Positions 461 to 15,330 of a stretch of DNA of 26,052 nt are shown piece after piece (position 1 is the first letter of the stretch; every line of letters begins with the position of its first letter). Source of the DNA: a virus; the IMG/VR virus record IMGVR_UViG_3300049734_000370, positions 1 through 26,052 of that record, one strand, 5' to 3'. The position numbers and the translations under genes were made by a program. The notes under the pieces are model-generated. The model ran no database searches. It had not been told where the DNA came from and was given only the letters and a program-made list of their open reading frames with translations.

Positions 461-868
461 TTGGTCGCACATAAGGTTAAGCGGCAGAAAGTTTTAAAGT
501 CTGGTGACTTAAGTGAAGAATCAATACACTCGACTGTTATTGATTGGGTTCGAAAGCACCCTTTCTTTAGAATCAATAATAGGTTCAGACTCATTCTTCA
601 TTTTGCTAATGAAGGAAAGCGGACTCTCAGGTATGGGAAGCTAATGAAAGACTTAGGCATGAGAAAGGGTGTTGCTGACCTATTCATCGCCATGCCACAT
701 CATGGGTACTGCGGGGCGTGGATTGAGCTTAAAAGCGAATCGGGCCGGCTGAGTGTGGAGCAAAAAGAATTCCTTGAGGATATGAAATCACAGAATTACT
801 TCACGGCCGTATGTCGGTCAATTGAATCGACAATCTATATGATAAGTTGGTATTGTGAGATTAATTGA
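461..868 (+). CDS. VRR-NUC domain nuclease
   Basis: A 135-residue protein that is almost wholly a VRR-NUC domain, a PD-(D/E)XK-fold nuclease family common in phages and related to Holliday-junction or flap-cutting enzymes. Visible features are HFANEGKR (47-54), GVADLF (70-75) with Asp73, IELK (88-91) with Glu89 and Lys91, and Gln101 in the following helix. This is the expected D...ExK...Q catalytic set. The start is a TTG; AAGGA at 448-452 is well spaced for it, and an in-frame stop at 446 rules out anything upstream. Stand-alone copies usually sit in phage replication or recombination regions. Here it is the first gene of an operon with the secreted peptide and the methyltransferase. Whether it cuts branched DNA or acts with the methyltransferase as a restriction-like pair is not known. 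Confidence 0.85.
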   Translation: MVAHKVKRQKVLKSGDLSEESIHSTVIDWVRKHPFFRINNRFRLILHFANEGKRTLRYGKLMKDLGMRKGVADLFIAMPHHGYCGAWIELKSESGRLSVEQKEFLEDMKSQNYFTAVCRSIESTIYMISWYCEIN

Positions 869-894
869 ATTAAATATATTGGAGAATCTTTTAT

Positions 895-1026
895 ATGAAA
901 TACATAGCCAAAATTGTTGGCGGCTCATTATTGTTAACTGCGATAAGCGCACACGCTGGTTTCAATGGTAACACGGCCCATAGTCGAGCAAATTGTGCTG
1001 GGTTTGAGGTATTGGAAATTGGATGA
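895..1026 (+). CDS. small secreted peptide (43 aa) with signal sequence
   Basis: A 43-codon ORF lies between the nuclease and the methyltransferase. A ribosome site (GGAG, 881-884) lies 10 bases before the ATG. The protein begins with a classic Sec signal peptide: MKYIAK, a hydrophobic core (IVGGSLLLTAISA) and a signal peptidase I site after Ala-His-Ala (19-21). A mature peptide of about 22 residues is left, starting GFNGNTAHSRANCAGF. Its TGA stop overlaps the methyltransferase ATG in the ATGA arrangement at 1023-1026, so translation of the two is probably coupled. The polar tail with a single Cys looks like the beginning of a longer secreted protein, and the last residues (EVLEIG) may come from a fusion junction. 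I do not recognise a function. Confidence 0.6.
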   Translation: MKYIAKIVGGSLLLTAISAHAGFNGNTAHSRANCAGFEVLEIG

Positions 1027-2135
1027 AAAAGAAACAAATGAAGGACTCTAAAGTTAAGCCAAAAGTAATTTCGTTATTTGCGGGTTGCGGTGGATTAGAT
1101 TTGGGTTTCCATTGGAAAGGTTATGAGACTGTTTGGGCAAATGATTTCAATGAGTGGGCTGCTGAAACATATGAAAAGAATTTCGGTGATTTAATTGTTT
1201 GTAAAGATATAGAAATAATTGATCCTATCAAAGATAAATCAATTCCTGATTGCGATTTAATTCTAGGCGGATTTCCTTGCCAAGATTTTTCTATGATTTG
1301 GAAGAGGCCCGGATTAAATGGTGAGAGAGGAAATCTATATAAAAGCTTTTTACGATTTGTAGCTGCAAAAAAACCAAAAGCGTTTGTTGCAGAAAATGTA
1401 AAAGGTTTGCTTACAGCAAATAATAACAAAGCAGTTGAACAAATAATTAAAGATTTTGAAAAGATAATGCCAGGCTATATTGTTAAACCTAAACTCTATA
1501 ATTTTGTAGATTATGGTGTTCCGCAATTTAGAGAAAGAGTATTAATTGTTGGTATCAGAGTTGATACAGGCTTCAATTTTCAACATCCAAAACCTACTCA
1601 CGGTCCTAAAGCTAAAAAACCTTATCTCACTGCCGGTGAGGCTCTAAAGGGAGCAAGCAGGGTTAAATTCAATAACGAAAAAATGAAAATTGCCCCCAAA
1701 ACTATTGAGATACTAAAATTAATTTCTGAAGGAGGAAATTTTACTGATATACCCCAGGATCATCCTTATTATGTAAAAGGCATGATTAGTCATGTATATA
1801 GACGCATCCATAGAAATGAACCGTCAAAAACAATTATAGCTGCTGGTGGTGGCGGAACTTGGGGATATCATTATCCTGAACCGAGGCCGTTAACTAATAG
1901 AGAACGAGCAAGACTCCAATCTTTTCCTGACGACTTTATATTTGTTGGATCAAATGCAGAAATAAGAAGGCAAATTGGAAATGCAGTTCCGCCACAGGGT
2001 GTTGTTGAACTTGCCGGCGCATTGATGCCTTTATTTACTGGAGAATATGATAAATTGAATTTGATGGATGAATATAAAAACGCTAAAAAAATCCCAATTA
2101 AAAATAGAATAGAACAAGACTTGAAGAGGCCATAG
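1023..2135 (+). CDS. DNA cytosine-5 methyltransferase
   Basis: A complete C5-cytosine methyltransferase of 370 residues. It transfers a methyl group from S-adenosylmethionine to cytosine in a specific DNA sequence. Motif I is FAGCGGLDLGF (19-29). Motif IV is GGFPCQDFS (82-90) with catalytic Cys86. ENV (124-126) is motif VI, QFRERV (168-173) motif VIII, RERARLQSFPDDF (293-305) motif IX and QIGNAVPP (317-324) motif X. The target recognition region, about 190-290, is variable, so the target sequence cannot be read. No restriction enzyme of a familiar type lies beside it, so it looks like an orphan or anti-restriction methylase. The ATG overlaps the stop of the secreted peptide and has only a weak ribosome site, which supports coupling. 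Met6 (1038) is an alternative start. The gene looks more AT-rich than its neighbours, suggesting separate acquisition. Confidence 0.95.
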   Translation: MKKKQMKDSKVKPKVISLFAGCGGLDLGFHWKGYETVWANDFNEWAAETYEKNFGDLIVCKDIEIIDPIKDKSIPDCDLILGGFPCQDFSMIWKRPGLNGERGNLYKSFLRFVAAKKPKAFVAENVKGLLTANNNKAVEQIIKDFEKIMPGYIVKPKLYNFVDYGVPQFRERVLIVGIRVDTGFNFQHPKPTHGPKAKKPYLTAGEALKGASRVKFNNEKMKIAPKTIEILKLISEGGNFTDIPQDHPYYVKGMISHVYRRIHRNEPSKTIIAAGGGGTWGYHYPEPRPLTNRERARLQSFPDDFIFVGSNAEIRRQIGNAVPPQGVVELAGALMPLFTGEYDKLNLMDEYKNAKKIPIKNRIEQDLKRP

Positions 2136-2416: not shown

Positions 2417-2692
2417 CCTAATCTCCCTTAGCTTTCTTTTCATCTCTAGGCGAAGAGAATCAATACAAATCGCATTCATTGATAGCCCCGTTCTTGCCAT
2501 AATTTCATGGATATCGTTCCACAGGCTTTCGGGCGCTCTTAGATAAAGAGCCTTTGCTTTTTCTTTTTTATAATTCACAACACCCGCATCTTTTTTATTG
2601 ATACCCGCATCAGAAAGAGAAATAAAAGCCTGTATTTTTTCCTCTTTTTCTAAAGAATTTAAGGGCGCCTTTGTAAATTTAGAATTTTTCAT
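2408..2692 (-). CDS. ribbon-helix-helix DNA-binding protein, likely ParB-like partition partner
   Basis: A small basic protein of 94 residues from the chosen start. Its second half has a ribbon-helix-helix pattern: a beta strand (KALYLRAP), helix A (ESLWNDIHEIMART), the turn GLSMN and helix B (AICIDSLRLEMKRKL). The N-terminal part is lysine-rich and probably disordered, as in partner proteins that stimulate ParA through a flexible tail. I prefer the ATG at 2692, which follows a GAAGAG ribosome site; an ATG at 2707 lacks one. The gene overlaps the 3' end of parA by 14 bases, so the pair is one operon. In type Ib partition systems such proteins bind the centromere and repress the operon. Candidate sites are the GATATC array at 3343-3424 and the nested repeats at 2353-2416. 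A plain CopG-type repressor is the alternative. Confidence 0.7.
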   Translation of the reverse strand: MKNSKFTKAPLNSLEKEEKIQAFISLSDAGINKKDAGVVNYKKEKAKALYLRAPESLWNDIHEIMARTGLSMNAICIDSLRLEMKRKLREIRED

Positions 2693-3329
2693 TAAATATC
2701 TCTTCATATAAATGTGTCATTTCTTCTATAGCCTTTGTGTATGCTGGATTATATTCAATGACAGATGCCCCCTGAATAGCGGCCCTTCGATAAACAATTC
2801 GCTCACAAATATGTGTTTTAAGTATATTTAGATTAGAGAACTCTTGTATCAATTCCGCGGCTTCCTGTGTCTCTTTAACGCCAGGGTTCGTTGAAGACTG
2901 ATTGATTACAATAAATGCTTGCAAGTCCTCGTTAAACTCCTTGGCTGTCTCAACTAATGAGCTCATGCGTCCTAATGTCCATAAATCAAATTGAGAAGGT
3001 CTTAACGGAAAAATTGCCTTTTCGGCAACAAGTAGTGCGCTTCTTAATTCAGAAGAATCCCGACCGCCCGCATCAATAATAATGTCCTTGTATCGTTTCT
3101 TAAGTTCTATTGCCTCTGTTCGAACAGCCTTATCAAATTTTTGAATACTGGCCACCCTTGGCTCAACCCGATTATCTTCTCGTAAGGAGCACCAATAGCT
3201 GGCCGTCTGTTGGCGGTCTGTATCTATTAAAAGAAAGTCATTATATTTTGTTGTTCTCATAGCCGCCAAATTGGTAGCCAGTGTTGTTTTTCCTGTGCCA
3301 CCTTTCTCGCCGCCTATTAAAATTATCAT
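2679..3329 (-). CDS. parA: ParA-family partition ATPase (short type)
   Basis: A 216-residue ParA/MinD-superfamily ATPase that would drive segregation of the replicon. The deviant Walker A motif is GEKGGTGKTT (7-16) with signature Lys9 and catalytic-loop Lys14. Walker A' is LLIDTDRQ (33-40), and the Walker B strand is DIIIDAGG (82-89) with Asp86. The motif begins almost at the N-terminus, so there is no DNA-binding extension. This length and layout match the type Ib (ParF-like) group, whose partner is a ribbon-helix-helix protein encoded just downstream, as here. AGGGG lies 5 bases before the ATG. The upstream region is an 11-bp-phased GATATC array that probably serves as operator and centromere. 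A ParA gene in a phage element points to maintenance as a plasmid, though a chromosomal prophage can carry one too. Confidence 0.9.
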   Translation of the reverse strand: MIILIGGEKGGTGKTTLATNLAAMRTTKYNDFLLIDTDRQQTASYWCSLREDNRVEPRVASIQKFDKAVRTEAIELKKRYKDIIIDAGGRDSSELRSALLVAEKAIFPLRPSQFDLWTLGRMSSLVETAKEFNEDLQAFIVINQSSTNPGVKETQEAAELIQEFSNLNILKTHICERIVYRRAAIQGASVIEYNPAYTKAIEEMTHLYEEIFNEKF

Positions 3330-5458: not shown

Positions 5459-8400
5459 CTATATTATAAATTCGGTTACTATCACTAAGCCTGCAAATCC
5501 TGCTCCGCCAGTAGCGCCCGATGTTGTACCAAGGCCACCACTGCCGCCGCCACCATATGCCCCTCCTGCAACACCATTCTCAGCCGTTGTTCCAAAAGCT
5601 GAAGCGCCACCACCTCCTAAAACTGAACTGCCACCTTTACCAGATGCGCCAGGGCGAGTATCACTATTTGACCATGACCACCCTCCTGCATCTCCAGTCA
5701 TGTTAACAGCCCCTCCAGAGCCAGCGCCCCCAGCCCCGCCTTCGACCAGACGAATCGCGGCGGTGGCAGTTGTGCCGGAGCCACCTACGCCCCCCGTCGC
5801 AGAAATTAACGCGCCAACACTTGTAGTTCCTCCGGTTCCACCTGAACCGCTGCCACTACCAGCAGTGCCGGCGGCACCTATGGTTACGGTTTGGCTTGCG
5901 CCAATTGTGGCTGAATCGAATACTTCTCGTGCATACCCACCGCTTCCGCCTCCTCCGGCCCCAGCAAGGTTACCAGCGGCACCCGCCGCACAACCTCCAC
6001 CTCCACCACCCCCACCGATGACTTCAACAATGCAATATTCCATGCCAGAGGTTGGTGTGTATGTACCGCTGGCTGTAAACACTTGCATGACAACGCTTGT
6101 AAATCCGGAGCCGCCCCCTGCTGGAGTTGCCCATGTTGCATCGCCGCGCCAGAAGGTGCTAGAGCTAGCGCCCGTTCCGCTGTTTAAGTTTGTAACTGGT
6201 AAATTTCCTGTCACGCCAGTTGTTAGAGGTAATCCCGTACAGTTTGTTAATGTACCACTCGTTGGCGTCCCTAAAATTGGAGTCACTAATGTTGGTGTAT
6301 TTGCAAATACAAGTGCACCTGTTCCCGTCTCATCTGTCACGGCCGCGGCTAAATTGGCAGAACTAGGTGTTGCCAAAAATGTGGCAACATTAGCACCAAG
6401 ACCGCTAACGCCCGAACTAATCGGAAGGCCAATACAATTCGTCAATGTTCCACTTGTTGGCGTGCCTAGTGCGGGCGTCACCAGTGTAGGTGATGTGGCA
6501 AAAACTAAAGAGCCTGAACCCGTCTCATCTGTCACTGCCGCGGCTAAGTTGCCACTTGACGGAGTTGCTAGGAATGTTGCAATGCCTGCTCCCAATCCAC
6601 TAACGCCAGTTGATATAGGTAATCCTGTGCAATTAGTGAGTGTGCCACTGCTTGGAGTTCCTAAAACGGGCGTAATGAACGAGGGCGTATTATTAAATAC
6701 AAGAGAGCCACTTCCCGTCTCATCTGTCACGGCTGCGGCAAGGTTTGCACTACTTGGCGTTGCAAGAAATGTCGCAACGTTAGCGCCTAGCCCTGAAACG
6801 CCCGTACTGATGGGTAGACCCGTACAGTTTGTTAATGTACCGCTGCTGGGTGTTCCTAGTGCTGGTGTGACAAAGGTAGGAGATGTATTAAAAACAAGTG
6901 AACCAGAGCCTGTTTCATCGGTGACGGCTGCCGCAAGGTTTGCGCTGGTTGGTGTCGCCAAGAAGGTAGCAACGTTCGCTCCTAGCCCGCTGACACCCGT
7001 TGAAATTGGAAGCCCTGTGCAATTGGTGAGAGTTCCGCTTGTTGGCGTTCCCAAAATAGGTGTTACAAGCGTTGGGCTCGTAGCGCGCACAGGGGCACCA
7101 CTGCCCGTGAATGCAACCATGGAAGGCAAATTTGAGCCATCCGTCACAAGCATTGAATTTGCAGCAGGAGCAAGAATAGAAAATGTTGTCGCATTGGAGT
7201 AAACAATACCACCGTTGGCGGCTGTAAGATTGGCGCCGGTTCCCCCATGCTCAAGGTCTAAAGGAAACTGCGCTGTAAACTGTATAAAATCTATCGGGTC
7301 TGTTCCAACTGTTACAACAGTTGATGTCTGAAGCCAGCTTGTACCGGCATTTTCAGTACCACCCAAAAGAACGGGAACAACAACGCCAGGTATAATTTCA
7401 GTATTTTCATCAAAGTCGGTTGCGCGCGTTACAACCCAATCGGTTGCGCCTGAGCCCTGATCTGTTACTGTATATACGCCATTATAGGCCGCTGTTGATT
7501 GGTTCTTAAATAGTACGCGCTGACCAACAGTTGGATTTAGGCCGTCAATTTCAAAAGCCACTTGCGTATCTGCATTTGTTAATGTATCGCCTATTCCACC
7601 TGCGCCATTATCAAAATAGGTTGCCACATAGTTGGTTGTTGATGCTGCAACTACTGCGTCTAGGAATGAAATACCACTAGCCATCGTATCTACATAGGTC
7701 TTTATTGCTAATGATGTAGAGAGGTTGTCGGCTGTTGCTGTAGCCATAGTGCCGTCATTAATTATTTCGTCCACACCCGTTGTTGAATTTATTGTAAATA
7801 CACCCGCTCCATTTAAAGCAACATTTATACCCCCGTTCAAATTCTGTGAAGAAATATTGTTGCTCTCAATACGAATATTACCCACATCCAATTGTGTGAT
7901 ACCGCTTACAGCGTCTAAATCTGAAATTACAACTCCTGAATCCTCTATGGCGCCTGAAACGCCATTAAATCGAGCTATAGTCATATCAACGGTGGGTGTT
8001 GTCACAGTTGGAACGCTTGCAAATGAAAGTTGCAATAAGCCATCTGTGACAATAGCTTGGCCTGATAATCCATCAGATTGAGGCCATTTCAGTAAATCTA
8101 GAATCAGATTACCGGTACCATTTGGAACTAGGCTTAAATCGCCATTGCTATTCGTGCTTGAAATGGTATTACCATCAACGCGAACATTGTCTACATCAAG
8201 ACGAGTAACCCCTGATATTTCATTGGAGTCATTTAATATCACTCCTGAATTTTGAAGCTCACCGTTTGTGCCATCAAATCGTGCAATCGCCTCATCCGTT
8301 GACGGAAAAATGGCCCCTGGAATAGTGATAAAACTTAGGTTGTTGGCGCCGTCTGTTGCCATAACTTGGCTAGGAGTTCCGTCTGAAGTAGGCCAATTCA

Positions 8401-8707
8401 GGCCATCTATCACAATATTTCCGCTACCTTTTGGTATCAACTCCAAATCAATATCTACATCAGAGCCTTGTGCACTTAATTTTACGGAATTGCCCGTTAT
8501 AGAATTTGTTAACTGAGGATAGTTAACGGCAGCAGCACCCGCACTGGTATACCTTAGAAGATAATTGCCGTCCTCATCTTTTATTCCAGTGCCTGGGAAA
8601 TCAAATTGAAAGTTTTGTGCTAAGTCACTAGAGCGCAAGCCGACTGGAATATCGCCTACTTGCATTTCACCGCCTAGGGTGAAATCTGAAAATTTTATGT
8701 CGGCCAT
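5459..8707 (-). CDS. giant tail fibre with 65-residue repeats and glycine-rich tip
   Basis: A 1082-residue fibre. Residues about 1-310 hold two or three diverged copies of a module with the pattern [23 protein letters not shown] followed by ARFxGxxGxxxxSGV. About 330-480 is a domain with [13 protein letters not shown]. From about residue 551 come four full copies and one partial copy of a 65-residue repeat containing [19 protein letters not shown] and [12 protein letters not shown]. The C-terminal 200 or so residues are extremely rich in glycine (runs of up to eight Gly), as in phage adhesin tips built of packed polyglycine helices. It starts with MADIKFSDF after an AGGAG site. The layout, shaft repeats then a Gly-rich tip, suggests receptor binding by the tip, with the shaft able to vary in length by recombination. 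Confidence 0.8.
6230..7090 (-). repeat. 195-bp tandem repeats in the fibre gene
   Basis: Four complete 195-bp units and part of a fifth encode the 65-residue fibre repeat. The sequence CCCGTCTCATCTGTCAC recurs exactly at 6324, 6519 and 6714, with a diverged copy at about 6909, confirming the 195-base period. Copies differ mainly at silent positions, so this is an old array rather than a recent duplication. Confidence 0.85.
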
Positions 8708-8722: not shown

Positions 8723-9091
8723 TTAATTATTTGTTCCATAGGCATACAGAACTATGCCGATAGTAGTATTTGCATTGGGTGCAAATGCATGTATCACGTC
8801 ACCGGCCTTAACTTCTCGGCAAATGGGAACGTTTTCTGTGACTAATTCAGACGTTGTTGCTGCAAATCCGGCACCAGCAGGCGCCGCCGCCGTTTCATTT
8901 AAGGCAATCCAGCAAACAGCTTGATCCGATGCCGTGTTGGCAATCTTAATTAATGCTTTATATCTCGGCGCAACCCCTGGAACAGTCAATGAGGTATCAG
9001 TAGTAGCCGCTAGATTCGCACTGTATTTTAAATCAGCAAATCGCAAGCTAAAATCCGTGGCTGGTTGCTGCGATGTATAAGGTGTAATCAT
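8723..9091 (-). CDS. small virion protein of unknown role
   Basis: A 122-residue protein, rich in Ala and Thr and mostly beta-predicted, with no signal peptide or membrane segment. The conserved-looking middle runs YKALIKIANTASDQAVCWIALNE. A strong AGGAG site lies eight bases before the ATG, and the next gene starts 15 bases after its stop. Its place between two tail genes suggests a tail or fibre-base component, or a small decoration protein. I do not recognise a family with confidence. Confidence 0.6.
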   Translation of the reverse strand: MITPYTSQQPATDFSLRFADLKYSANLAATTDTSLTVPGVAPRYKALIKIANTASDQAVCWIALNETAAAPAGAGFAATTSELVTENVPICREVKAGDVIHAFAPNANTTIGIVLYAYGTNN

Positions 9092-9105
9092 TTATTTTTC
9101 TCCTA

Positions 9106-11274
9106 TTAAACAATTCCTAGTCGCGCATCTGCGGTATAATTGAAAAACACTTGACTGAAAGGCTTTGTAGCTGAGGATGCCGGTGCCGTCACTAAATCAC
9201 TCCCTGTAGCGGCAACAGCATTTATATTTGTGCGCCCTGCTGTGACAGTCCAACTTGATGAGGCAACATCCCCAGTTCCATCTAATGTTGCATTGGTATA
9301 GACATTCATAGTGATAAGTGCCGAGGCGTTTAATGTTCCTGGAGCGTAAAATTCAATAACTGGGTCTGTTCTTTTTGGAGTATTAAATATTATTCCAAAT
9401 ACACTCGCCCCTCCGTGTACGTTACCTCCAGATGTCAAAGCAATCTGCTCAAAAACAACCCCAGTGCCCGTAACTGTTCCAGCGGCTATACGTGGAGGGT
9501 AGGATGATTCATAAAAAGCCTGGCAACTCTTCAATACTTCTTCCTGAGATTGCTCACCAGGACGGCAAGGTAAGTCGCCAGGAACCAATGAAATTGAATT
9601 TAAGGTAATCACAGTGCTTGCACTTATATACGCAAATGTCACTACCATGCAGATTTTATCGGTATCACCTAGCTGTGTTGAGTCCGTTATTTCCCATCCA
9701 GAGAACCCATAATCGTTGCCTTCATTAATATCTGAATTCACAGTGACTGTGTTTAATGTCGCCGTTGCAGTATCTAAACCACTTCTAGGTATCGCTGTCC
9801 AATTAGCTTCGGTTAACGTAAATACTCCAGCAGTTGATAATGTACCAATATCCGCCGGAAGGGCCGGTATGTTTGCCGCGGCTGAGCCCCTGAATAAATA
9901 AATCTTCATTTCCACGTCATCGCCAACACTGCCTTTATAGGCAAATACATTAGCCGAAAGACGGGCACCGATGACTTTTTTAGCCTGTGCACCGGTTAAA
10001 TATTGCAATACATAAAATGCAGTATTTGTTCCGACCGTTGTGAATTGCAGCCCTCCTGTAACACTACTAATCGCATAAGCATCAGCACTTCCACCCGCAG
10101 AAATGGTTTGGTCACATATATAGGCAGCCGACCCAGCGATATTGCCAGATGTTCCAAATTGATATGGATTTACCGTAAAATCCCAGCCTATCATGATGCT
10201 AGGTATCTGTTTGGCCACCAATCGCGGTATAAAATAATCTCCCATCATGGCCTGTTCACGATTGGAAGATTGGGTATCGTATTCAACTATATTCGTACTG
10301 GCGTTACTTAATGTGGGAACAACCTGAATGCTGCTTATCCGAATATGATCGCTCGGTAAAATTGATAAATAAATATCAACATATCCGTCTATTCCAGAGT
10401 CCGTATTATTCGATAAAGGAATTGGATCGGCCGTTGTGCCCATCAATTCAACATAATTTGAACTATCAAATGATTCGCTCAATATAGTGATGGGAGAGCC
10501 CCCACTGGATTCAACGTAAAACATTTCAATTCCAGTGGTTCCGGCTACCTCATTTCTGGCAACAACATTTCCAGCCAAAAATATATCTTCATTTGCTGTA
10601 CTTGCCCAAAGACCGGAGTTTACATTCAATCTCTGTCTTAGAAGGCATTCGGTAATTCCGTTGGAGACATTGATATCAAGAACATAAGGAGGGCTAGTGA
10701 CAACATTATCATTGCCAGGGATTGCGATACGCTCCACAACAACAGTGCCAGTGCCGCTTATGACAAAATCCCAATTTGGGCCAAGCTCAAATACTTGGCT
10801 TACGGCCGCTGACACAGTAAATGTTGTGGATAATCCCTCATTGATAAAGACTTTTGTAAATTGAGGGTTTGATAATTGATTAGGTACAGCGATAGCGTCA
10901 CGGGTAGGGTCATTTGCAGCCGTAATATTCGGCCACGCTTCACGGGTAAACTGTTCAATCCCGTTTTCGTCTCGAATAACGGCATAATATAAATCAAGAT
11001 TTCCTTCATCATCGAAAGGAAAATAGTAAATGACCTCATTATCTCCGCCTGAGTTTTGAACGGTTCCAACACCGCTTAATGTGATGATGGAGCCCATAGA
11101 GGTGTATGTATAGTTTGGAGGCGCGCCCGACAGTTGAAAAACAGGCTTTGGCACATTTCGCGCTAAATCACGAAAAAAACTTATGGTACCATTCGCTAAC
11201 GGTAAGCCAGAATCCTTATCAACAAAGTATTGCTCTAAATCCGATGCAACTATATAACGCTCGTCCAATGCCAT
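9106..11274 (-). CDS. large tail protein, probable fibre or receptor-binding component
   Basis: A 722-residue, beta-rich protein. The N-terminal about 115 residues (YFVDKDSGLPLANGTISFF, later LYYAVIRDENG) resemble a domain found at the start of many phage tail or fibre proteins, where it anchors to the tail. The middle is a series of Thr/Ser/Gly/Val-rich strands. The C-terminal part, near CQAFYESSYPP, resembles fibre domains. No P22 tailspike head-binding or beta-helix pattern is evident, so the host-recognition apparatus differs from P22. An AGG-type ribosome site lies seven bases before the ATG. The gene lies between the ejection proteins and the small virion protein. Assignment as a tail protein rests on the N-terminal domain and context. 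Confidence 0.65.
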   Translation of the reverse strand: MALDERYIVASDLEQYFVDKDSGLPLANGTISFFRDLARNVPKPVFQLSGAPPNYTYTSMGSIITLSGVGTVQNSGGDNEVIYYFPFDDEGNLDLYYAVIRDENGIEQFTREAWPNITAANDPTRDAIAVPNQLSNPQFTKVFINEGLSTTFTVSAAVSQVFELGPNWDFVISGTGTVVVERIAIPGNDNVVTSPPYVLDINVSNGITECLLRQRLNVNSGLWASTANEDIFLAGNVVARNEVAGTTGIEMFYVESSGGSPITILSESFDSSNYVELMGTTADPIPLSNNTDSGIDGYVDIYLSILPSDHIRISSIQVVPTLSNASTNIVEYDTQSSNREQAMMGDYFIPRLVAKQIPSIMIGWDFTVNPYQFGTSGNIAGSAAYICDQTISAGGSADAYAISSVTGGLQFTTVGTNTAFYVLQYLTGAQAKKVIGARLSANVFAYKGSVGDDVEMKIYLFRGSAAANIPALPADIGTLSTAGVFTLTEANWTAIPRSGLDTATATLNTVTVNSDINEGNDYGFSGWEITDSTQLGDTDKICMVVTFAYISASTVITLNSISLVPGDLPCRPGEQSQEEVLKSCQAFYESSYPPRIAAGTVTGTGVVFEQIALTSGGNVHGGASVFGIIFNTPKRTDPVIEFYAPGTLNASALITMNVYTNATLDGTGDVASSSWTVTAGRTNINAVAATGSDLVTAPASSATKPFSQVFFNYTADARLGIV

Positions 11275-11357
11275 AAATTAGCCTTTTTCCTTATATACTT
11301 CCTGTTGTTTTTCAGTATATTTTATTTTTAATTATTAAACCATGAGCCATTTTTATG

Positions 11358-11386
11358 TTTACTTTTTGTCCATATGTTTGTATAAT
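11358..11386 (+). promoter_or_regulatory. rightward promoter inside the leftward virion operon
   Basis: TTTACT (11358-11363), a 17-base spacer and a perfect TATAAT (11381-11386) point rightward, against the virion genes. The predicted start near 11393 lies 18 bases before the ATG of a small ORF that has its own ribosome site. Confidence 0.55.
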
Positions 11387-11410
11387 AACGGTTTTACATA
11401 GGAGAGAATC

Positions 11411-11491
11411 ATGAAACCTTTAATATTGACCCCTTTAGAATGGGCGCTTATTTATGGCGGCCTAGCATACGTTCTTTACGGAAATAATTAA
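11411..11491 (+). CDS. 26-aa membrane microprotein, opposite strand (moron candidate)
   Basis: A 26-codon ORF lies in the 247-base gap between two leftward virion genes and is read in the opposite direction. It encodes a peptide beginning MKPLILTPLEWALIYGG. Residues about 8-24 are hydrophobic with aromatic ends, as expected for one membrane span. An AGGAGA ribosome site lies just before the ATG and a TATAAT promoter just before that, so all the signals needed for independent expression line up in under 60 bases. Phage morons, genes expressed from the silent prophage, have this arrangement, and small membrane peptides of this kind can cause superinfection exclusion. The function here is unknown. 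Coincidence remains possible because the ORF is so short. Confidence 0.5.
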   Translation: MKPLILTPLEWALIYGGLAYVLYGNN

Positions 11492-11521
11492 TTCCACACC
11501 CTTGATGTTCTATAAAAATAA

Positions 11522-13669
11522 CTAATCCTCATATCGAGTTCCTTGGCCTGGCGTTAACACGAGCTCCAGTGGCGGACGCGACCTTTGTTGAGCCGCTAAT
11601 AAAGCTTGTGTTAACGATTCTGGCAGCCCCTCTGGTAATCTTCCTACGACATTCTTTACAATCTCAGGAACATACTTTTCAAATACCGGTTCTTTTTTTG
11701 TCCTATTGCTTTTATCAATCATCCTTTTTATTAATTTTTCACGAATAAGAGGAGATGTTAGGGCCCGATTGGTTACGTTCGCTGCAACCGATGGAATTAA
11801 TGCCATAAATGGGTCTCCTGATGTGCCGGCCAATAACCCTTGAAGACCTGCTATAATAGTCTGCGTGTTACGTGCGCCAGTTTTTGGGTTATATAATACA
11901 TTCAACGCTTCTTCGTTCATTCCCCGCAATTTCCCATAATCCAATATATATTGACGGACTGATTCATTAGGAAATAGCGCTTTAAATTGCCTTTTTCCAA
12001 GTGACTTAACAAGAGATGCCAACTCCTTGGGCTCCAATTCCCCGTACTTATTTTCAGCACCTTTTAAATAAGTGAACCCTAATAGGTTTTTTTGTGATTC
12101 TGGCAATAAATTATTTATTTTCTGAATGTCTCTGAATCTATCTTGTTTAGCGCCTGGCTTAATAATCTCATGGACTATTTTCTGAGGGTCTTTATCTGCA
12201 GATAAAAGTTTATATACATCCTTATCAAGGAACGGAGTGAAGTTCTTTTTGTAGTTCTCTTTTGCTGTTTTATGGGCTTTTTTAAGCGCATCTGAGCCTG
12301 TTTCTTCAATGCTTCGCTCAATATCATTATGAAGAGCTTCTGACATTCTCTTATAAAGACCTCCAAGTGAGCGGTCTTTTGCGTTTGGTGATGCTAACAT
12401 CCCTTGACCTTCCTTATATAAAGTGTCAGCGGTCATTGTTGCCTCACTAATGGATGGCTTTATATTTTTAGATACAATGGTCTTTCCTTTTTCATTTAAT
12501 ATAGGGCTTTTGATTTTAGTGTCTGCATCTTCATATCCTAAAAGTTGTTTATACATTTTTCTAAAATCAGGATCGTTTTGGTAAAGCGGGGATTCTTCAA
12601 TAGAACGCGCTGTATCACTGACAAGTTTATTGAAATTGGATAAATCAAGCGCATGCCCTTCTTTTTCTGCAATTTTATTTCGTTCTGTATAAAGCTCATT
12701 CTTTCTTAGTCTATGTTCCTTAAATGCAGTATCAAGAAGGCTTTTAACCATGTCATTTGTGTCGCCTATGATACCTTCTGGCTCTAGGTTTCTCATAACA
12801 TGCTCGCCGCGCTCTTCAACTTGAGACTTAATTTGATCAAGGATACCTTTAGCGCCACTAAATGGAACTTGTGAAGATAAATTCTCAAATAGGAATTTAA
12901 GTTTTGGCTCTTCAAGGACGCTACCTAGCGGTGTTCTTGTACCTTCTGCTGCCCTTAAATTACGTTCTAGTTGTTCTGGTGTGAGTTCACCGCGAAACAT
13001 CCGTGCCGGATCTAAATTTTTAATGTTAGAAATAGATTTTATTGCGCCCTTTAGTCCTGCTTCACCCGTCATGCCCAATAATGTGCTCAATAACGGGTCT
13101 TGGTTTTGCCCCGCCCCATAGAGTGCCGCTGCGCCCCCGCGTCTTGCGGCCCCACCTAATCCTCTCGCAAGTCCACCAAGTCTTGCGTATGGTGCGAAAC
13201 TTCCTATTCCTCGCAAAAGCTCATCACCTTCTTGGGCGTCGCCAAGAATAGCTTTTTCAAGTCCTGTATCACCAATATGAAGTCTCTTGATGAAATCCTC
13301 TATTCCGCCCTTTCCAATGTCTCTTTCTCCTAAGTAGCTTGCAACATTAGACGGAATATTAACGGCGCCTTTAATTCCTTCCAGCAATCCTGCACCTACG
13401 TTCTCGGCAGCACGAATGGGATGTGTGGCAAGCTGTTTAGCGGATTTATAAGCTTCTCCTGGCAATTGAGTGACGAAATCATACAAAGCACCAGGAACAC
13501 CAGAAACGCTTTCGCCTATGTCTTCCATGACACCGCTAAAGCCGGTTCGCTTCTCTGGTTGCTTTGGCGCAAATTCTGGGAAGTTCTTTAAAATGGCGGT
13601 GCGCATAACGTCTTGCGATGTTCCATCAGGAAATTCTAGCTCTTGTCCATTCGGGAGTTCTACTATCAC
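11522..13669 (-). CDS. large DNA-ejection (internal virion) protein
   Basis: A 715-residue protein at the position of the P22 ejection proteins (gp20/gp16). It begins with a small conserved module seen in phage internal proteins (ELPNGQELEFPDGTSQDVM). This is followed by a Gly/Ala-rich, possibly membrane-active region, about 150-220, and long charged helices. Such proteins leave the virion with the DNA and help form a channel across the cell envelope. The start is a GTG at 13669 in a GTGA overlap with the stop of the previous gene, with AGGAG at good spacing. Family assignment rests on context, length and the N-terminal module. Catalytic motifs are not evident. Confidence 0.65.
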   Translation of the reverse strand: MIVELPNGQELEFPDGTSQDVMRTAILKNFPEFAPKQPEKRTGFSGVMEDIGESVSGVPGALYDFVTQLPGEAYKSAKQLATHPIRAAENVGAGLLEGIKGAVNIPSNVASYLGERDIGKGGIEDFIKRLHIGDTGLEKAILGDAQEGDELLRGIGSFAPYARLGGLARGLGGAARRGGAAALYGAGQNQDPLLSTLLGMTGEAGLKGAIKSISNIKNLDPARMFRGELTPEQLERNLRAAEGTRTPLGSVLEEPKLKFLFENLSSQVPFSGAKGILDQIKSQVEERGEHVMRNLEPEGIIGDTNDMVKSLLDTAFKEHRLRKNELYTERNKIAEKEGHALDLSNFNKLVSDTARSIEESPLYQNDPDFRKMYKQLLGYEDADTKIKSPILNEKGKTIVSKNIKPSISEATMTADTLYKEGQGMLASPNAKDRSLGGLYKRMSEALHNDIERSIEETGSDALKKAHKTAKENYKKNFTPFLDKDVYKLLSADKDPQKIVHEIIKPGAKQDRFRDIQKINNLLPESQKNLLGFTYLKGAENKYGELEPKELASLVKSLGKRQFKALFPNESVRQYILDYGKLRGMNEEALNVLYNPKTGARNTQTIIAGLQGLLAGTSGDPFMALIPSVAANVTNRALTSPLIREKLIKRMIDKSNRTKKEPVFEKYVPEIVKNVVGRLPEGLPESLTQALLAAQQRSRPPLELVLTPGQGTRYED

Positions 13670-14688
13670 TCGAAAGCTCCTGTTTTAGGGTTGTAGCGCA
13701 ATCTTTTATTTGCATCTGAATTACCAGCTCCAGTAAGACGTTTTCTACGGTCTAATAAGTCAGATGTTAAATTGTCTAGTCGTTTATTATAATTTTCTCG
13801 CGACTCCCAGGGTTGCCTTCCTGATATATCCTCAACAATGTGTAAGCTTTCTTTTATACCAGGAAGCTTCAGGGCAGCAATCAAAGTATCAATACTTTCT
13901 CCTACTTTTCCTTTATAAGATGCCTGTTTATTTCTAGAAAAATATTTCCCTAACACTTGATCTGGCACTTGCATTTCTTTTAGTTCTTTAATTATTGGTA
14001 ATACATTATCAATTGCAGCAATTGTCTTTTGATTGGCCGTTACTGTAGCTGACGTTGGTATTTCCATAGACCCCTCTAGTTGTTTTTTACGTCGGTATAT
14101 TTCCAATTCCTGGGCAATCTTTTCTTCAGACGTTTGTGCCGGTAGACCTAAGTTTTTACGAATTAATGCGCGACGTATGTCATCTGATGCACCAGCTGTT
14201 GAAGCACTGCCGCCTGGAGAATTAAAAAAATTCGCCAATTCATTTACATAGGCTGCCTTCTTTTTAGGGTCTACCTCCATTTCAGCAGCGCGCACCTGCA
14301 ATCTAGTAAGTGCATTGGCAAGAGCAGATGTACCCTGTTCTGTTCTAAAACGTTGTGGTTGTTGTTTAAGCAACAGTCTGGCCATTTCATTATCAATGGC
14401 TGATTTTTCTTGCGATGTTTTAAAAAGTTCTGGTTGTTCTTGAAGCAGTAGTTTCGCCATTTCAGCGTCGGCTCTCGCCTTTTCTTGTGCCGTCTTAAAA
14501 CGCTGCGGCTCTTCTTCGAATAATAACCGGCTCATGGCGTTTTCAATTTCTTCTTTTTGCCTCTGACGTTCTAATTGAGCAGGAACTTGCCCTGATTTAT
14601 AGCCTGAAATCAAACTATCTACCAAATCACGAAAAAATGGGTTCCCTTGTGGCGCAATATTAGCAAAATTAATCGGTTGAAAAGGCAT
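13666..14688 (-). CDS. probable ejection protein with three 25-residue repeats
   Basis: A 340-residue, largely helical protein. Residues 52-126 consist of three consecutive 25-residue repeats beginning MSRLLFEEEPQRFKT, MAKLLLQEQPELFKT and MARLLLKQQPQRFRT. These would form a regular amphipathic coil. The rest is helical and charged, with no signal peptide. AAGGAG precedes the ATG by nine bases. Its stop overlaps the GTG start of the 715-residue gene. Together with the 209-residue gene upstream this makes a three-gene set matching the gp7-gp20-gp16 order of P22. I infer a role in the internal ejection complex; sequence alone does not prove it. Confidence 0.6.
   Translation of the reverse strand: MPFQPINFANIAPQGNPFFRDLVDSLISGYKSGQVPAQLERQRQKEEIENAMSRLLFEEEPQRFKTAQEKARADAEMAKLLLQEQPELFKTSQEKSAIDNEMARLLLKQQPQRFRTEQGTSALANALTRLQVRAAEMEVDPKKKAAYVNELANFFNSPGGSASTAGASDDIRRALIRKNLGLPAQTSEEKIAQELEIYRRKKQLEGSMEIPTSATVTANQKTIAAIDNVLPIIKELKEMQVPDQVLGKYFSRNKQASYKGKVGESIDTLIAALKLPGIKESLHIVEDISGRQPWESRENYNKRLDNLTSDLLDRRKRLTGAGNSDANKRLRYNPKTGAFE
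14311..14535 (-). repeat. three 75-bp coding repeats in the ejection gene
   Basis: The DNA encoding residues 52-126 of the 340-residue protein is a threefold 75-base tandem repeat. The units share the coding pattern M-x-[RK]-L-L-x-x-x-x-P-x-x-F-[KR]-T. The units have diverged at many positions. Confidence 0.75.
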
Positions 14689-14700
14689 CTACATAACTCC

Positions 14701-15330
14701 TTAAATAAACCTACCGGCTATGGCTCCGCCAAGTGTTCCGCCGCCTGGAAGACCAAGGCCCGCAATACCACCGAATGCTTTCATAAGGCCACTAAACAAA
14801 TCACTTTGTCTTTGATTTTTATCGGCTTGACCCTGAAATGCGAGCCCTGCTTTTGTTCCTAAAATATTTGATAGGTCACCCGTTAAATTCCGAGTAGCAT
14901 CGTAACCCGTGTCATAAAAGTGCTGCTCGCCTTCGAGTCCTCGTCCTTGTAGGCCAAATACATTACTTAGCCATTGCTGCATATCATCGCCTAAAAGGCT
15001 GTCTGCAAGCCTAGATTCTCGCTCAATGTCTTGAAGGCTGCCCCTCATGCCACCCGCTGCCGCTGTATTACCCGCCGCTCTCAAAGCCTCATCACGCTTT
15101 AGCTGATATCCACTAGACGGCTGGTAATTCTTCATTAATTGGTCAAGAAATCCGGCAGGGTCTTGTGCCATTTGCTCATAGGGTTTTTGCATGGCTTGAT
15201 AAGCCGCATCCCCACGCTGAATATAGGGGTTATAGCCCTGCCGTACTATATCTGGAATTTGATCCAAAAATGGGATTGCTGCATCAGCAGGATTTCTGCC
15301 GCCTCTTAAAAAATCGCCTAAACTTGCCAT
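14701..15330 (-). CDS. gp7-like DNA transfer protein
   Basis: A 209-residue protein rich in Gly, Ala and Gln, with the pattern SGYQLKRDEALRAAGNTAAAGG at about 93-114. This pattern is common in small internal proteins of podovirus-type phages. The C-terminus has a Gly-rich hydrophobic tail (GGIAGLGLPGGGTLGGAIAG), which could insert into membrane. By position, just after the gp4/gp10-like genes and before two larger ejection proteins, it corresponds to P22 gp7. An AAGGA site lies seven bases before the ATG. It would be packaged in the head and ejected with the DNA. Confidence 0.65.
   Translation of the reverse strand: MASLGDFLRGGRNPADAAIPFLDQIPDIVRQGYNPYIQRGDAAYQAMQKPYEQMAQDPAGFLDQLMKNYQPSSGYQLKRDEALRAAGNTAAAGGMRGSLQDIERESRLADSLLGDDMQQWLSNVFGLQGRGLEGEQHFYDTGYDATRNLTGDLSNILGTKAGLAFQGQADKNQRQSDLFSGLMKAFGGIAGLGLPGGGTLGGAIAGRFI

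Follow-up and report, generated by a model that had tools for sequence, protein, structure and literature searches.

A 26-codon mini-gene, preceded by a predicted promoter and a ribosome-binding site, runs antisense to the late operon of an uncultivated virus (IMGVR_UViG_3300049734_000370, a partial record of 26,052 b, analysed over its whole length and referred to here as the window), in the gap that separates its last ejection-protein gene from the tailspike-like gene. It is very probably a real gene, and in the reading favoured here, to which a probability of about 0.5 is attached, it is a moron whose SieA-like peptide would be made in the lysogen and block DNA ejection by related phages. 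A wider proposal, put forward tentatively and at just short of even odds, is that P22-like phages share an antisense slot carrying fast-turnover one-span microproteins of 18–27 aa that block the ejection conduit, and that STnc6030, a published antisense RNA of Salmonella phage BTP1, acts through the 23-aa peptide encoded within it.

The mini-gene and its surroundings

The virion operon of the window runs leftward through the terminase small and large subunits, portal, scaffold, coat, head closure, a DNA-ejection protein, two large proteins and the tail proteins (features relevant to the mini-gene are collected in Table 1). The last protein of the ejection group, holding the place of P22 gp16 and proposed here as the target of the peptide, had no Pfam or PHROG match, and a comparison with phage records returned zero matches both for window DNA 9000–14000 and for the tail and ejection proteins. 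Outside the virion operon, at the left end of the window, genes for a VRR-NUC protein and a DNA methyltransferase (461–2135, plus strand) face the gene for the ParA-like ATPase. A 500-aa open frame (5700–7202, plus strand) runs antisense within the 1082-aa tail-fibre gene (5459–8707, minus strand); it has neither a Pfam match nor tandem repeats, and is probably a by-product of base composition.

Table 1. Positions of the mini-gene, its neighbours and comparable features (window coordinates unless another record is named)
Feature	Position	Strand	Basis and remarks
ParA-like ATPase	2679..3329	-	PF13614, E 1.1e-12
Tailspike-like protein, 722 aa	9106..11274	-	Assigned by position, without family match; conserved N-terminal (head-binding-like) part by alignments
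Cargo slot, 247 b long, separating the last ejection-protein gene from the tailspike-like gene; place of the P22 sieA region	11275..11521	.	ORF map, P22 annotation, 93-junction survey
Predicted promoter TTTACT-17-TATAAT, 10/12	11358..11386	+	Consensus match only
Shine-Dalgarno AGGAG, 6 bases 5' of the ATG at 11411	11400..11404	+	Sequence
26-aa ORF MKPLILTPLEWALIYGGLAYVLYGNN, predicted single-span membrane peptide, putative moron mini-gene	11411..11491	+	Sequence, triple test; hydrophobicity marginal (KD17 1.29, KD19 1.55)
Last ejection-group protein, 715 aa, place of P22 gp16; proposed target	11522..13669	-	Assigned by gene order after the ejection genes; relatives found
Weakly hydrophobic Gly/Ala-rich segment of that protein, residues 612-630; putative contact region	11780..11836	-	Hydropathy
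Second large ejection-group protein, 340 aa, place of P22 gp20	13666..14688	-	Gene order only
DNA-ejection protein, 209 aa, place of P22 gp7	14701..15330	-	phrog_598 'DNA ejection', E 2.9e-7
Endonuclease VII in the slot of two relatives	L148 3287-3961; L149 3319-3948	-	
23-aa membrane ORF MERDLLNFVFLIFGLVVGKLLFA inside STnc6030; gene unannotated	BTP1 NC_042346 (L164) 14011-14082	-	

An earlier note had pointed to a promoter, a ribosome site and a 26-aa ORF lined up within 11358–11491 on the strand opposite to the neighbouring genes, and both its coordinates and its sequence proved exact, the ORF lying entirely inside the gap between the two leftward genes. The predicted −35 box (TTTACT, 11358–11363) agrees with the consensus at 4 of 6 positions and the −10 box (TATAAT, 11381–11386) at all six, with a spacer of 17. 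The number of promoter-like sites in 9000–14000 is unremarkable (12 observed, 12.4 expected), and this is the sole 10/12 match among them. Taken as a triple (a promoter of at least 10/12, a Shine-Dalgarno sequence and an ATG ORF of at least 20 aa, counted on both strands), the arrangement occurs once in the 26-kb window as against a mean of 0.05 per window in 60 dinucleotide shuffles, and was reproduced in 0 of 3000 shuffles of the gap, a rarity that argues against a chance origin. The product had also been described as a one-span membrane peptide. A membrane peptide with at most one span is indeed predicted, but the span itself is marginal, with a best 17-residue Kyte-Doolittle mean of 1.29 and a Glu at position 10, within the span, and every other slot peptide compared is more hydrophobic. 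No homologue of it was found by tblastn over 50,697 phage records, or by degenerate DNA patterns for LEWALIYGG and GGLAYVLYG in IMG/VR contigs.

Slot contents among relatives

Relatives were gathered via their tail and ejection proteins, and 93 distinct junctions between the two genes were compared. In 71 of them the junction is closed, with a gap of at most 69 b and often an ATGA overlap. The remaining 22 are open (101–1134 b), and every open gap holds one or more antisense genes, which in 20 cases encode one-span membrane peptides or small membrane proteins and in two (L148 and L149) recombination endonuclease VII; such mobile endonuclease genes may help move slot cargo in and out. The mini-peptides include MTFIVNLVVFVLGWWLLGLIIPSSDD (L031), MVLFILYVGIAYGLFCIIASILLGEL (L136), MDILFLGFVVVICGAVYGLCQD (L081) and a 19-mer in L058 with a GTG start behind AAGGAG, and larger proteins combining a span and a helix are found in L002, L006, L109, L091 and L039. 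Many slot ORFs are preceded by a clear Shine-Dalgarno sequence, and in L003, L018, L024 and L029 a −10 box lies 6–7 b 5' of the ATG, as in leaderless genes. Upstream DNA is near-identical in L003 and L018, in front of different peptides, and L053 and L055 likewise have a promoter region in common and different ORFs. Signals of selection in the L003/L018/L024/L029 and L006/L109 groups were weak, or the sequences too diverged for use.

The earlier note's reading of the mini-gene as a moron is well supported by this survey, the slot being mostly empty in relatives, filled with different antisense genes in the rest, and placed where P22 carries sieA. With its own predicted promoter, its location between lytic genes and the variable content of its slot (71 of 93 closed, 22 differing), the mini-gene fits the layout of a prophage moron.

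Because AT-rich DNA easily yields hydrophobic ORFs, the chance explanation called for a control, and 23 slots, the window included, were set against 76 other codirectional gaps of the same contigs. At a strict threshold of KD 1.9, antisense membrane ORFs were present in 17 of 23 slots, where shuffling predicts 2.4, and in 13 of 76 control gaps (Fisher P = 8e-7), and sense-strand membrane ORFs in slots were near expectation (2 versus 1.2). The window peptide falls below this threshold; at its own hydrophobicity the count becomes 20 of 23 slots, with 7.7 expected from shuffles and 27 of 76 among control gaps (P = 2e-5).

Other cargo was also observed. Sense-strand toxin-antitoxin pairs sit beside the antisense membrane ORF in the slots of L039 (2360–3912; an antitoxin and a YoeB-like toxin) and L081 (3023–3548; Phd/YefM and a weakly ParE-like protein). 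A CCDC90-like coiled-coil membrane family (PF07798) occurs in either orientation (L024 3635–3976, plus; L091 3078–3635, minus; L039 2360–3137, minus), its likeness being clear only in L024 and weak in the other slot proteins. Searches of Pfam and PHROGs with slot-protein families returned only CCDC90-like, YoeB, Phd, weak ParE and Ldr, endonuclease VII and the PHROG of HkcB itself. A [GA]xxxG helix-packing motif appeared enriched in slot peptides (6 of 17 versus 2.2 in shuffles, P = 0.004), a pattern picked post hoc and given no weight.

A peptide inside STnc6030

STnc6030 was published as a superinfection-excluding antisense RNA conferring total exclusion of BTP1 (Owen et al. 2020, PMC7067206), was classed as non-coding, its lack of any ORF longer than 60 aa being counted in favour of this (PMC7067206), and has been treated as an RNA both in that paper (PMC7067206) and in a 2025 review. 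Its constitutive expression is tolerated, the yield of induced phage is unaffected, the authors leaving the escape of induced BTP1 unexplained, and four changes conferring escape from it are all non-synonymous in the injection protein (PMC7067206). On the antisense strand of the corresponding BTP1 gap (14023–14177 of NC_042346) are a TATAAT, a GGAGG and the ORF for MERDLLNFVFLIFGLVVGKLLFA, which ends 12 b inside the injection gene. The peptide is present in 29 phage records, including L, ST64T, ST104, MG40, SPN9CC, a Klebsiella phage and E. coli HF4s, and no gene for a peptide of this type is annotated across nine regions inspected.

Between BTP1 and L, 40 of 60 upstream bases differ, and changes in the ORF are mostly synonymous (dN 0.14 versus dS 1.1, dN/dS about 0.13). 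When the same number of changes was placed at random, so few amino-acid differences arose at P ≤ 0.0012 in each of five comparisons, which are not independent of one another. Judged by these substitution patterns, the BTP1-type peptide is under strong purifying selection. Sf6 carries MQRDLLNIAFYIVGFCTFLVFAKLF in the same place, and members of this family are also found in E. coli prophages, the ORF being lost or altered in two of the E. coli genomes inspected, E21845 and F070 (in the latter the prophage itself is decayed). In many E. coli genomes similarity to Sf6 starts at or next to the start codon of the peptide and runs on into the ejection gene, which looks as though the peptide and this end of the gene move as a unit. 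To regard the BTP1 peptide as the exclusion agent would be a re-reading of the published data, in which a block at entry would explain the phage specificity, the mapping of escape to an ejection protein and the unimpaired production from induced prophages, the last of which an RNA destroying late mRNA does not explain.

Escape regions and proposed mechanism

The changes conferring escape from STnc6030 lie at 404041–404078 of the D23580 chromosome (PMC7067206), in which the BTP1 prophage occupies 368797–409321 (PMC5322425). With the attachment site put, from gene order, between 18992 and 19143 of the phage record, they fall at about codons 553–616 of 655 in the injection protein, outside the peptide ORF, in a stretch that borders or includes the most hydrophobic segment of that protein (580–598). 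Escape of P22 from SieA similarly maps to the C-terminal parts of gp16 and gp20, the gp16 changes being G532W and P546S of 609 residues (PMC10883804), and hydropathy places these beside or in a weakly hydrophobic segment (544–562). The ejection protein of the window has a comparable segment at residues 612–630 of 715, corresponding in place to where escape from SieA maps in P22 and escape from STnc6030 in BTP1. A similar segment is found in the ejection proteins of L002, L005, L006, L009 and CUS-3, and is not clear in those of L003, L018 and L019.

These observations suggest a mechanism in which the mini-gene, sitting in a cargo slot beside the ejection gene and antisense to the late operon, would be expressed from its own promoter in the lysogen, where late transcription is off. 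We infer that the 26-aa product would be translated, insert into the host inner membrane and there meet the ejection proteins of an incoming related phage, spoiling the conduit as with SieA; contact would most likely involve the C-terminal segment of the gp16-like protein that is rich in glycine and weakly hydrophobic. The earlier note had added that such peptides can block superinfecting phages, an idea to which P22 SieA and the BTP1 slot peptide lend support by analogy, indirect but specific. An exclusion function for the window peptide is put at about an even chance.

Lifestyle of the phage

Expression from a silent prophage, as the earlier note had phrased it, was not borne out as written, the window carrying ParA and no tyrosine integrase, so that a plasmid-prophage is likelier. 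Neither an integrase nor a repressor could be recognised in the window, itself a partial record. A search for tyrosine integrase over the other virus records, many of them 36–44 kb long, was equally negative, the only matches falling in the bacterial assembly containing L019. Six virus records, one of them the window, encode ParA; five have a serine resolvase, and in ten a P22-type Cro scored above cut-off. Searches of the relatives for a telomere resolvase and a Peptidase_S24 repressor found neither. Among plasmids, the major capsid protein had no match and the portal only distant ones. The phage is probably temperate and P22-like, and because ParA occurs in the window and five other virus records without tyrosine integrase, its lysogenic form is likely to be a plasmid-prophage. 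Encoded on the contig of L018 are a protein resembling the Legionella major outer membrane protein, one with ankyrin repeats and a hybrid histidine kinase/response regulator (L096 10857–11693, minus; L097 13116–13904, minus; L097 15724–17340, plus), which hint at a Legionellales-like host and at cargo unusual for a 39-kb podophage-type genome. That of L009 encodes an RtcB-type RNA ligase (L103 5801–7060, minus).

Alternative explanations

Small one-span regulatory proteins are common in bacteria, and the peptide might serve the lysogen otherwise, by altering the envelope, guarding against unrelated phages or stress, or tuning a host membrane protein. Unrelated cargo in the slots (Phd/YoeB and Phd/ParE-like toxin-antitoxin pairs, CCDC90-like proteins, endonuclease VII) would be in keeping with such a role, which is nevertheless rather unlikely given that a place beside the ejection gene is common to SieA and the BTP1 peptide, and that E. 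coli prophages conserve, from the start codon onward, the peptide jointly with the final part of the ejection gene. The rightward transcript may instead be the active species, pairing with ejection-gene mRNA in exclusion or regulation, with the ORF incidental or secondary. Since no terminator was found in the 247-b gap, the transcript would run on past the ORF and antisense RNA into the ejection gene would also be made; such an RNA is, moreover, how the authors explain STnc6030, which occupies the same position (PMC7067206). This explanation is unlikely, however, as the BTP1-family peptide is conserved by synonymous change despite replaced upstream DNA, the published escape changes are all non-synonymous, and induced phage is unaffected, contrary to what destruction of late mRNA would bring about. 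What recurs in open slots is also an ORF and not an RNA structure, and positions 11200–11700 gave no Rfam match up to E = 1, to known toxin or antitoxin RNA families included.

That same Rfam result weighs against a type I toxin or addiction peptide, a hydrophobic toxin checked by antisense RNA and maintaining a plasmid-prophage, as do the lack of an antitoxin promoter on the opposite strand of the gap and the fact that STnc6030, which holds the analogous peptide, is tolerated when constitutive (PMC7067206). The size and hydrophobicity of the peptide would fit a toxin, ParA suggests a plasmid-like prophage, and toxin-antitoxin genes do occur in the L039 and L081 slots, but overall this is a very improbable origin. 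Chance, by which a promoter-like site and a short open frame would have come together by accident in an AT-rich gap, draws some strength from the ease with which AT-rich, T-rich gaps give hydrophobic ORFs, as seen in the shuffles and control gaps at the hydrophobicity of the window peptide, and from the fact that no homologue of this peptide was found by which to show its conservation. It is made improbable by the rarity of the triple and by the relatives, in which the junction is closed unless it carries an antisense gene and slots exceed control gaps in antisense membrane ORFs.

Implications and relation to known systems

If the favoured reading, a lysogen-expressed peptide blocking ejection, and its extension to other P22-like phages are true, annotation has missed a class of microproteins even in the classic phages L, ST64T, Sf6 and BTP1, and the slot microproteins would be among the smallest superinfection-exclusion proteins known. 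There would then be a simple protein account of an exclusion effect now credited to antisense RNA, and the puzzling insensitivity of induced BTP1 to its own exclusion RNA would be resolved, an entry block sparing phage made within the cell. The action of SieA on ejection proteins would also become approachable with a 23-residue helix in place of a three-span protein.

Several known systems offer partial parallels. Small prophage membrane proteins that block DNA entry by related phages include HK97 gp15, Ltp of TP-J34 and the exclusion protein of Tuc2009, with escape mapping to the tape-measure protein in TP-J34 and to tail tube/tape-measure genes in HK97 (PMC10883804); these differ in belonging to long-tailed phages, in their larger size and in the position of their genes. 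HkcB of HK620, CUS-3 and epsilon34 is antisense in the same slot, abuts the ejection gene and has an N-terminal membrane span, much like the slot proteins of L002, L006 and L109, but has 107 aa with a long coiled coil and a sequence unrelated to the window peptide.

SieA of P22 shares with the window mini-gene the slot itself (between gene 16 and tailspike gene 9), the antisense orientation and, as far as predicted for the window, a promoter of its own and a membrane product, and the sieA ORF ends 22 b beyond gene 16 where that of the window ends 30 b from the ejection gene. However, SieA has 162–164 aa, three predicted spans and an FxRYPxEAxxFNK motif (PMC10883804), whereas the window peptide has 26 aa and at most one span, and lacks both the motif and sequence similarity. 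The peptides of BTP1, L, ST64T and Sf6 agree with the window in slot, strand, layout of promoter and Shine-Dalgarno sequence and ORF end at the ejection gene, and are of similar size (23–25 aa versus 26 aa); a single span is predicted for them as for the window peptide, in which it is marginal. Their motif M-x-R-D-x-x-N-x-A-F (MxRDxxNxAFxI) is absent from the window peptide, sequence similarity is lacking, and the BTP1 peptide is clearly hydrophobic (KD17 2.36) compared with 1.29 for that of the window. Because these sequence tests fail, the window peptide is, as far as sequence can assign it, a member of neither the SieA nor the BTP1-type family, but by analogy of position and layout it may well work like them.
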